Positions 20,670 to 23,130 of a stretch of 64,000 bases of DNA are shown here, piece by piece (position 1 is the first letter of the stretch; each line of letters starts with the position of its first letter). The notes beneath the pieces are model-generated. The model ran no database searches. It saw only the letters and a program-made list of their open reading frames with translations, and was not told where the DNA came from. Position numbers and translations under genes: made by a program. Origin of the DNA: Halorientalis sp. IM1011. GTDB lineage: Archaea; Halobacteriota; Halobacteria; Halobacteriales; Haloarculaceae. Location: positions 1,364,001-1,428,000 of the forward strand of contig NZ_CP019067.1 of assembly GCF_001989615.1 (NCBI RefSeq), given 5' to 3'.

Positions 20670-21036
20670 ACCCGGTCCTCGGGCCGTTCCGGGGAAAGGG
20701 TTTGTGACCCGCACACCACATATAAATCGCCGTGAGATATACGCGTGTTTTTATAACAATTCACGGCTGGTTGTAAAAATACACTCAGATAGAGCCCGAA
20801 ATTAATATACCGGGCTTCTACCGGTCTCCCTCGTGATCCAGTTCGGGCGGTCGGTGCCCGCGGAGATCGGCGTCGGTGTCGTCTCGGCGACCGCGGCGTG
20901 ACTATTACTTATATACCCGAGGTGTTAGGGGGACAGTTTATACCGAATCCTGCTTATAAATACGTCAGTCAGACTTAAAAACTGCCGTATATGAACGTGG
21001 AAATAACTAATCGGGGATAGTGGCTGGGGTGGAGTG
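20670..21036. other. AT-rich intergenic region with several TATA-like boxes, no gene seen
   Basis: This 367-base gap is the most AT-rich of the window. It holds ATATAAAT (20718-20727 area), TTTTTATAAC (near 20747), CTTATATACC (near 20913), GCTTATAAATAC (near 20952) and CTTAAAAAC (near 20974). An imperfect hairpin AGCCCG...CGGGCT lies at about 20792-20815. It separates the divergent DUF309 and Tat-hydrolase genes. An antisense frame across it shows no family match or codon bias and is not called. Confidence 0.6.
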
Positions 21037-21987
21037 ATGTCTGACCATTCAGACAGAGAGAGGGGGAGCAGTTCACGGATCGACAGACGGAGCGTGCTGC
21101 GGGGGATCGCCGCGGGCGGTACGGCGGCGGTCGGTGTCGGTGCGATGAGCGGAACCGCGTCGGCGGCCGAAGAGCAGTGTGCGTTCGGTCTCAACCTCGA
21201 AGAGGCACCGGACGAGTACCCGGTCGTCGAGCGGGATCCGGGATTCCTCGGGATCGGTGCCGGCGGCCTGTCCGAGACCGGGGACGTTCCGGAGGGGGAA
21301 GACGAAGTCGTCGTCTACATCCACGGCTGGCTGGAGTTGTTCACCGGCGGCGCGGCCGATCAGGGGTACACGCTCCAGCGGGCGCTCCGGGACGCCGGGT
21401 CCGACATCGCGACGCTCGCGTACAACTACCCGAGCAGTAGCCCCAACTGGTGGGGCCAGAAGGACGGCGCGGAGACGTCCGGCCGCGAGTTCGCGTCGTG
21501 GTTGCAGAGCTATCGGGAGGAGAACCCGGACACCGATGTTCGACTGATCGTCCACTCGCTGGGTGCCCGCGCCGGTGCCGGACTGCTGGACGAACTCGTC
21601 AACGAGATGGGTGGGGAGCCGGTTCGGTCGCTGGAGATCCTCGGGGGTGCGATCTCCCGCGAGGCCGTGACCGTCGACGGCGAGTTCGGCGATGCGCTGG
21701 CCAACGGGGCCGAGGAGGTCAACAACTACTGGAGCAGCGGCGACAACATCTTAGACGAGATCTTCCAGATCGGCGAGTTCGGCACGGAAGCCGTCGGTGC
21801 GAAGGGCGCGCCGGAGGACGCCGAGACGCCAGACAACTACAACGACATCGACGTGACCGGAATCGTCAGGGGCCACTGCCTCTACTACGACCCCGACCGG
21901 GGCTGTATCGACACCGTCGTCGAGAACTTCCCGGAGGGGTTCCAGGGCGGCGGCGACCCCGGTGACAAGTTCGACGACTGGTTCTGA
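21037..21987 (+). CDS. secreted alpha/beta hydrolase with Tat signal
   Basis: Predicted esterase or lipase of 316 aa. The N-terminus has a twin-arginine signal (SRIDRRSVLRGIAAGG then an AxA site TASAAEE at about residues 44-50), so the folded enzyme is exported. The core has VVVYIHGWLELFTGG (oxyanion region) and a nucleophile elbow VHSLGARAG (Ser in H-S-L-G). A likely acid/His region lies near IDVTGIVRGHCLYYDPD, where Asp and His stand. GTG at 21034 directly precedes ATG 21037. Tandem paralog of the next gene, which lacks a signal. Confidence 0.87.
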   Translation: MSDHSDRERGSSSRIDRRSVLRGIAAGGTAAVGVGAMSGTASAAEEQCAFGLNLEEAPDEYPVVERDPGFLGIGAGGLSETGDVPEGEDEVVVYIHGWLELFTGGAADQGYTLQRALRDAGSDIATLAYNYPSSSPNWWGQKDGAETSGREFASWLQSYREENPDTDVRLIVHSLGARAGAGLLDELVNEMGGEPVRSLEILGGAISREAVTVDGEFGDALANGAEEVNNYWSSGDNILDEIFQIGEFGTEAVGAKGAPEDAETPDNYNDIDVTGIVRGHCLYYDPDRGCIDTVVENFPEGFQGGGDPGDKFDDWF

Positions 21988-22088: not shown

Positions 22089-22817
22089 ATGTCGTGGCTA
22101 CCGCTCGATGCGCTGTCGATGGGGACGGACGCACCGCAGGAGTTCCCGATGATACGCGACGGGGAGCTTCGCGGCTCCTTCCCGCCGGACCCGTCGGAGC
22201 TGGTGGTGTACGTCCACGGCTGGCTCGAAGGGATGACCGGCGACGCGGCCGCACAGGCCAACGCCGTGGCCGGGGCCGTCGAGGCGCTGGGGTACGACGC
22301 CACGGTGGTCGGGTTCACGTACCCGGCGAACCTGCCGCTGTGGTACCCGAGCAAGACGATCGCCGCGCGGAAAGGGCGGGAACTCGCCGCCTGGGTACAG
22401 GCCTTCAGCGCGGAATGCCCGGACGCCCCCGTTCGGCTGGTCGCGCACTCGCTCGGTGCCCGACCCGCGCTCGCCTGTCTCGACGAACTCGCGGACCGGG
22501 AGGCGACGGTGCAGTCGTGTTCCTTGCTCGGCGCTGCCGTCAACTGTGACAGCGTCACCGACGGCGGCCGGTGGGAAGACGGAGTCCGGGATGGAGCCGA
22601 GTGCGTCTACAACTACCACACAGCCGGTGACAGTACGCTAACTGTACTCTACCGGCCAGCGGAGTTCGGCACTGCAGCCCTCGGCGTCGACGGTGCGTGC
22701 GGTCCGACCCCCGGCACCTACGCCGACCACGACGTAACCGAAAAGGTCCGGAACCACTACACCTACCTCCAAGAAGACGGCGGCTGTCTCGACCGCGTGA
22801 TCGGGGATTTCGCGTGA
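22089..22817 (+). CDS. alpha/beta hydrolase, cytosolic paralog of the preceding gene
   Basis: Hydrolase of 242 aa that aligns along its length with the Tat-exported neighbour: VVYVHGWLEGMTGDAAAQAN, VAHSLGARPALACLDELADR (nucleophile Ser), and a C-terminal ADHDVTEKVRNHYTYLQEDG with catalytic-looking Asp/His. No signal peptide is present. The pair arose by duplication and has diverged in location. The tRNA-Arg repeat block starts directly after it. Confidence 0.85.
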   Translation: MSWLPLDALSMGTDAPQEFPMIRDGELRGSFPPDPSELVVYVHGWLEGMTGDAAAQANAVAGAVEALGYDATVVGFTYPANLPLWYPSKTIAARKGRELAAWVQAFSAECPDAPVRLVAHSLGARPALACLDELADREATVQSCSLLGAAVNCDSVTDGGRWEDGVRDGAECVYNYHTAGDSTLTVLYRPAEFGTAALGVDGACGPTPGTYADHDVTEKVRNHYTYLQEDGGCLDRVIGDFA

Positions 22818-23057
22818 CTGAGGGCCAGTAGAGTCCTGACGGAGTCCCCGCGAGCGCCGAGGGACCAACGGTCCCTCGAGCAGCCGGCGCTTCGCGCCGG
22901 CGACGCAGCGAGCGGGGGCCCGTCAGAGCGCGGACGCGCTCTGACGGAGATTTGAACTCACTCACTTCGCTTCGCTCGTTCGCTGCTCAAATCTCCGCGC
23001 GTCCGTTTCATCGACGCGGACGGTTCGCTACGCTCACCGTTATTGCGTCGATGAAAA
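22818..23057. repeat. palindrome cluster with a truncated tRNA-Arg 3' copy
   Basis: Five perfect or near-perfect inverted repeats stand head to tail: 22859-22877 (8-bp arms), 22883-22901 (8), 22920-22947 (13-bp arms CCGTCAGAGCGCG, GA loop), 22946-22996 (10-bp arms GGAGATTTGA) and 23006-23056 (12-bp arms TTTCATCGACGC). A 19-bp copy of the tRNA-Arg 3' end (22941-22959, identical to 23062-23080) lies across the third and fourth. No coding frame is supported in the gap 22818-23057. Confidence 0.8.
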
Positions 23058-23130
23058 CGTCCTGACGGAGATTTGAACTCCGGTCCCTGGCTCCGCAAGC
23101 CAAGAGGATAGTCCACTACCCTATCAGGAC
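23058..23130 (-). tRNA. tRNA-Arg(GCG)
   Basis: Minus-strand gene with acceptor stem GTCCTGA/TCAGGAC, anticodon stem TTGGC/GCCAG with loop TTGCGGA (anticodon GCG), and T-arm CGGAG TTCAAAT CTCCG. Discriminator G is at 23058. No intron; CCA is not encoded. Confidence 0.94.

Follow-up and report, generated by a model that had tools for sequence, protein, structure and literature searches.

The window analysed here, that is, the whole 64,000-nt stretch of Halorientalis sp. IM1011 (contig NZ_CP019067.1, positions 1,364,001 to 1,428,000), contains a tRNA-Arg(GCG) gene on the minus strand at 23058..23130 (ARAGORN; RF00005 match). Its last 20 bases, from the T-loop to the discriminator, occupy 23058-23077, and the parts of the array described next all lie on the 3′ side of the gene and are read on the same strand. 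The tRNA is directly followed by hairpin A of a first unit (23006..23057; 12-bp arms at 23006-23017 and 23045-23056), which was recognised as an inverted repeat and by DNA folding and is of a type seen in most units. Next comes hairpin B, whose 5′ arm (22987..22997; TCAAATCTCCG on the plus strand) is an inverted repeat copy of the T-arm, and whose variable inner part (22960..22986) has an identical sequence in congener G001 (locus L069). The unit is closed by a direct copy of the tRNA 3′ end at 22941..22959 (GAGTTCAAATCTCCGTCAG in tRNA sense), which will be named hereafter the echo. This echo has kept 16 of the 20 canonical bases, the last four having diverged; its counterpart in G001 has kept 20 of 20. 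A second unit, of acceptor type, was delimited by inverted and direct repeats at 22833..22940. It consists of an inverted acceptor arm within 22920-22947, a loop, and a distal acceptor-end echo, a direct repeat at 22833..22844 (CTCCGTCAGGAC in tRNA sense). A similar unit without insert is found in G001, G004 and G006 (L069, L067 and L063, respectively).

The original prediction, made from the sequence alone, had pointed to a 19-base repeat of the tRNA end, a partial inverted copy, and five hairpins forming one array. The repeat (CTGACGGAGATTTGAACTC) is exact at 22941-22959 and 23062-23080, 121 bases apart, the inverted fragment is present at 22987-22997, and all five hairpins exist (22858-22878; 22883-22901; 22920-22947 with 13-bp arms; 22945-22997 with 11-bp arms; 23006-23056 with 12-bp arms). 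The first two hairpins belong to a separate, dispersed double palindrome located in the loop of the second unit (22851..22912). A third direct copy had been overlooked (GTCCTGACGGAG at 22833-22844, identical to 23059-23070). The double palindrome has an 85% identical copy at C1:1925738-1925799 and another at C1:555134-555185 over 52 bases. It is made up of GAGGGACC/GGTCCCTC beside GCCGGCGC/GCGCCGGC, and similar copies occur at several other intergenic sites of the genome (L002, L003, L006, L008). The longest tRNA substring in the flank is 19 bases, against a maximum of 12 in 2000 mononucleotide shuffles, and the 121-nt unit folds better than 200 of 200 dinucleotide shuffles (z of -4.0 as DNA and -6.2 as RNA).

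No gene or integrase was found between the tRNA and the echoes, and a BLAST search against plasmids gave no match. Directly downstream of the array are two adjacent, related ORFs (21034-21987 and 22089-22817) that appear hydrolase-like (motifs YIHGWLE and YVHGWLEG), the first showing a signal of twin-arginine-like type. Apart from hydrolase-like proteins, the ORFs next to the locus read as proteins unrelated to them, and no integron integrase gene lies beside the anchor. On balance, we read the locus as a small array of one full and one acceptor-type unit belonging to a family of gene-less hairpin cassettes.

Searching the genome with the locus uncovered a second site, a tRNA-Ser(CGA) gene with four to five units of this design in tandem behind it. 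A survey of the genome's tRNA genes, in which a divergent cluster at 2.24 Mb was set aside, found exact copies of 13-24 bases of a tRNA's own 3′ end downstream of about 20 tRNAs, spaced by about 90-130 bases. Ordinary tRNA genes had no such copy upstream. Under a uniform definition of the echo (20 bases, T54 through discriminator, with up to three mismatches), 20 of 44 ordinary tRNAs carry downstream copies in this genome and 16 of 41 in G001, with acceptor-only copies at four and three further tRNAs, respectively. By contrast, a non-haloarchaeal member of the phylum (G314) has none at 31 tRNAs, taken as the best-scoring tRNA genes only. The 5′ flanks in the same genomes contain no 12-base copies of tRNA 3′ ends. 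Moreover, no echo of another tRNA was found in this genome after discounting a neighbouring tRNA gene and one chance hit. Rates not biased by selection come from four genomes, namely the present one (G000), G001, G314 and G458; those of G314 and G458 refer to the best-scoring tRNA genes, supplemented in G458 by already known loci. The set-aside cluster (G000:C1:2239000-2246500; L045, L019, L026, L029) comprises about 30 divergent tRNA genes in 6 kb, unlike the host set; it resembles a viral or proviral tRNA array and is devoid of hairpin units.

The same layout proved to recur well beyond this genome. The motif GATTTGAA-N(22-52)-TTCAAATC is present in 260 of 292 Halobacteria genomes, the backward-read control giving zero in all. 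Elsewhere in the phylum it occurs in only 10 of 163 genomes, with a single site in each; none of the four of those 10 loci that were looked at has a tRNA. The loci of the class sample, the phylum sample and a scan of named genomes were chosen by this motif. Nineteen of 20 sampled sites, from 20 other genomes, lie just 3′ of a same-strand tRNA with a matching end. The scan of named genomes returned 85 stretches, 74 of the 80 listed being haloarchaeal, and 72 of 76 haloarchaeal sites are located at most 600 bases 3′ of a same-strand tRNA. Although the phylum sample first suggested a restriction to Halobacteria, this was ruled out by a Woesearchaeota genome of the named-genome scan with the same layout (exact at Ala-GGC, Cys and Ser; partial at Ile, Ala-CGC, Leu-TAG and Val-TAC) and by three further genomes of its phylum. 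The family is thus nearly universal in Halobacteria and sporadic in DPANN. Viral contigs gave 105 stretches, which may well be chance hits or pairs of tRNAs, since a pattern this long would be expected to pick up both. A Rhodospirillaceae contig (L225, 155-331) has one tRNA-Pro with a two-mismatch echo and an inverted arm, and 17 other tRNAs of that genome have none.

Read in tRNA sense, a unit of about 100-130 bp comprises hairpin A, an inverted T-arm, a variable hairpin and the echo, and units are arranged in tandem arrays of up to five. Hairpin A lies directly after the tRNA or the preceding echo. Its perfect stems are longer than those of shuffles (6.9 versus 4.2) though nearly every copy differs in sequence. 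The inverted T-arm is typically GGGATTTGAA, and the unit core is GTTCRAAT / ATTYGAAC. Inner hairpins vary but fall into recurrent families (CCCTGGAAG...CTTCCTCCGG, TCAGGGAG...GACCGTGG and GTAGACCAC...GTGGGCGTGG), and the unit finishes with GG followed by the 20-base echo, TTCAAATCC...discriminator. Among 294 units from 196 arrays, 291 start with T or C, the starts being T/C-rich and distinct in 274, and most end in CCGG, GTGG, TCGG or CGGG, which means that the direct copy begins at the T-loop. These starts and ends (CCGG or GTGG) are not inverted repeats of each other. The distance from the tRNA end to the first echo is 75-261 nt (median 107.5), and 105 of 141 echoes are identical over all 20 bases. 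In a second kind of unit, the copy is limited to about 12-13 bases of the acceptor end. No gene was found inside units. Inner modules keep one orientation (1074 versus 39 pairs), so that inversion of modules by site-specific recombination was rejected. At a tRNA-Leu(GAG) gene (L007), a unit of about 260 bases, far above the usual size, has a 3′ flank of about 90 bases duplicated along with the tRNA end. A further dispersed palindromic repeat of haloarchaea, starting near CACCTTTTT and ending near CGGATGC, often occurs within or after arrays (L172, L184, L016, L123).

The arrays are subject to turnover. Between G000 and G001, orthologous tRNA genes differ in the presence and number of units, in both directions. 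At tRNA-Arg(GCG) itself, G004 (L067) has an acceptor unit only, G001 (L069) has an acceptor-kind unit plus a tRNA-adjacent full unit whose echo is complete, and an integrase-like gene is found at this place in G003 and G005. Neither of the two observations named in the original prediction as speaking against it was made, since the tRNA-Arg loci of relatives vary in their units instead of showing identical bases, and the unit is no decayed element with an integrase. The tRNA-Gly and tRNA-Pro arrays of G008 and G014 contain the same unit pieces in a changed order, and the tRNA-Asp arrays of two Natrialba species differ despite 95% identical flanks. In Natrialba (L252, L255), tRNA-Asp is also duplicated in tandem, each copy having a separate and different array. 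The Leu(CAG) pair can be read, against insertion, as a loss of hairpin B leaving hairpin A. As most of these comparisons are between species, none of them dates an individual insertion or shows the site before and after it in a perfect pair. The arrays are also polar: echoes are exact in 92% of tRNA-proximal, 81% of middle and 45% of last positions, a pattern consistent with new units entering next to the tRNA and older ones lying further out. One inner module is identical in the tRNA-Pro and tRNA-Ser arrays of G014 and ends exactly at the T-loop repeats. Inner modules are thus common to different tRNAs but echoes never are, indicating that whole cassettes do not simply move between tRNA genes; such movement was rejected as no foreign echoes were found.

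Taken with the 3′-side location and the intact tRNA, the 20-base direct copy suggests that units are inserted at the 3′ end of the tRNA and that T54-N73 is duplicated in the process. The reading we lean towards is that the units are non-autonomous, gene-less DNA cassettes inserted directly 3′ of tRNA genes with a 20-bp duplication. A cassette would enter directly 3′ of the tRNA and duplicate the bases from T54 to the discriminator, leaving the tRNA whole, while a copy free to decay would mark the far end of the cassette. Insertion would thereby take place as DNA beside the tRNA, in the manner of new CRISPR spacers or integron cassettes. The hairpin with its inverted T-arm, which could pair with the conserved T-loop and T-stem, may be the recognition feature of the recombination machinery, and the enzyme would be encoded elsewhere and act in trans. 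More tentatively, and with somewhat less than even confidence, we propose that haloarchaea and some DPANN possess a new cassette system with tRNA anchors, in which a trans-acting recombinase reads the folded T-arm hairpin and builds polar arrays reshuffled like those of integrons.

The T-loop is the crossover place of several tyrosine integrases. Because the direct copy begins exactly there, a host or element-borne tyrosine recombinase crossing over in the T-loop would be the first guess for the enzyme. Furthermore, archaeal XerA has been reported to bind stem-looped att sites, with an affinity lower than for dif (PMC8371274), and together these points make a tyrosine recombinase acting on the folded hairpin our leading guess, although a double-stranded circle of about 100 bp would be an awkward substrate for such an enzyme and speaks against the insertion model. 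No enzyme was found for the insertion, and the presence of Cas1 or of Y1 transposase does not correlate with that of units. Cas1 (PF01867) is absent from the present genome and from five other unit-rich genomes (G257, G124, G182, G145, G171), and IS200-type Y1 transposase, with six matches in the present genome, is absent from unit-rich G149 and G112. Cas1 was accordingly rejected as a required enzyme, and Y1 transposase does not seem to be required either. An autonomous parent was looked for at L086, the sole site of the class sample far from a tRNA, which proved to be an ordinary unit pushed away from its tRNA by a 10.4-kb integrative element with an integrase-like gene of its own. In G169 (L101, 9184-19587), a 10.4-kb integrative element with a likely tyrosine-integrase gene beside attR has inserted between tRNA-Val and a hairpin unit that was already there. 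As candidate parents, the integrative elements examined at tRNA-Val and tRNA-Arg were rejected, since they have neither hairpin A nor B.

The inverted arm covaries with the local tRNA. At T-loop base 57, arm and loop combine as A-T in 208 of 216 cases and as G-C in 11 of 19 (Fisher p = 8.5e-12, an optimistic value since units share ancestry). Four T-stem pairs likewise covary with the arm above all 2000 permutations, which ignore common descent, and the acceptor pairs show no covariation with it. Mismatches in 264 arms comprise 151 G-T and 139 A-C, so this test, of limited power, gives no G-U excess and hence no sign of pairing kept at the RNA level.

The main rival to cassette insertion dispenses with a dedicated enzyme. 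Replication forks would stall at tRNA genes, and nascent strands would switch template between the T-loop sequences common to all tRNA genes and the T-rich sequence following the tRNA; palindrome correction would then keep the hairpins perfect, and slippage between the 20-base repeats would make the arrays grow and shrink. Such a process would explain why the echo is always local, why inner modules are swapped exactly between T-loop repeats, why the arms have no G-U bias, why hairpin A pairs well in spite of 274 distinct starts among 294 units, and why neither Cas1 nor Y1 transposase correlates with the units. It would nevertheless need two precise switches that produce one and the same 20-base boundary at over 20 different tRNAs, and the same logic should apply to the control archaeon G314, none of whose 31 tRNAs has an echo. 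Nor does it sit well with conserved inner families whose orientation is fixed (1074 to 39 pairs). We consider it rather unlikely.

Alternatively, the units could be structured RNA, that is, part of the tRNA transcript, serving as 3′ trailers or processing signals and multiplied because they are useful. This would agree with their constant position on the tRNA strand and the 3′ side, the strong predicted RNA folds and the fixed orientation. However, about half of the tRNA genes of the same genome do without units, orthologous tRNAs vary in their presence and number, and the arms lack an excess of G-U over A-C. An Rfam search of eight arrays did not match the units either, returning only tRNAs, one 5S rRNA and two sub-threshold hits overlapping tRNA genes. 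A role as RNA thus seems improbable.

It is very improbable that the units are scars of ordinary integrase-bearing elements, attL and attR having remained after loss of the interior. In favour of this, relatives have such elements at these tRNA genes, tRNA-Arg(GCG) of congeners G003 and G005 among them, and crossover is known to occur in the T-loop, where the copy starts. Yet one of these congener elements, inspected at both ends, has no unit features, and other full-size elements inspected lack the hairpin parts as well. Scars are expected to have variable, degenerate interiors, against which stand the constant size and architecture of the units, the inverted arm and the recurrent hairpin families. 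The doubt voiced in the original prediction about a simple relic of tRNA-targeted integration was therefore well placed, and the original interpretation is supported in part: the locus has no integrase or gene inside and belongs to a family of hairpin units at tRNA 3′ ends that extends across the genome and the class. Casposon-like or Cas1-type insertion with target duplication hardly deserves credence, for although casposons form target duplications and tandem insertions (PMC6563490) and the layout is that of a CRISPR array (the tRNA as leader, exact repeats, a decayed last repeat), the units are numerous in the present genome, G257, G124, G182, G145 and G171, all without Cas1, and have no terminal inverted repeats. 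Such insertion could be upheld only with a Cas1 that was present in the past or came from outside.

If cassette insertion is true, nearly every haloarchaeal genome would bear dozens of traces of active or recent DNA insertion that have seemingly gone undescribed, left by a process aimed at essential genes yet harmless to them. It would explain many of the palindromes crowding haloarchaeal tRNA genes, pose the concrete question of which enzyme is responsible, and provide a tool for site-specific insertion whose target sites are already numerous in the genome. A search of open-access papers found no description of tRNA-anchored hairpin cassette arrays, and the family is apparently undescribed. 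Integrons have been reported in archaea, in an account where tRNA-anchored hairpin units are not described (PMC9668308).

Like integron arrays, the units form a tandem array at one site with older distal members and shuffled order, and both types of cassette are bounded by a folded, imperfect hairpin in which pairing is kept more than sequence. The units, in contrast, have no gene, no integron integrase was seen, the anchor is a tRNA gene, and the repeat is a tRNA-specific 20-base sequence instead of a short GTT-type core. The attC core GTTRRRY / RYYYAAC is not matched, as the unit core has one extra base pair and a C as fourth base. With CRISPR arrays they have in common a leader-like anchor, identical repeats, spacer-like inserts and a decayed last repeat, but here the repeat is the tRNA 3′ end, the inserts are recurrent hairpin families and not foreign sequences, and Cas1 is not required, being absent from the genome itself. 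The tRNA-targeted elements of tyrosine recombinases (SNJ2 and pNOB8 types) also enter at tRNA 3′ ends, make the tRNA whole again, leave behind a direct copy and can stack in tandem; the present units differ in having about 100-130 bp, no genes, conserved hairpins, and a presence at about half of the tRNAs of one genome. They do not carry a tyrosine integrase of their own, and integrase-bearing elements at the same tRNAs are separate. The PATE, MITE and SMR elements of Haloquadratum are likewise small, gene-less and palindromic haloarchaeal elements. These are dispersed, have either palindromes close to their ends or terminal inverted repeats and, in the case of PATEs and SMRs, do not duplicate the target (PMC3119063), whereas the direct 20-base copy at tRNA genes, the hallmark of the units, also sets them apart from PATE and IS200-IS605 elements. 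Casposons finally resemble them in target duplication, tandem insertion and the use of tRNA genes among their targets, but carry genes and terminal inverted repeats, and Cas1 is absent here. In features that define them, integrons, casposons, PATEs, CRISPR arrays and ordinary integrative elements thus all differ from the family, which would nevertheless work much like several of these. If cassette insertion is true, it would also provide a natural comparison for how arrays such as those of CRISPR and integrons could start from a tRNA gene.
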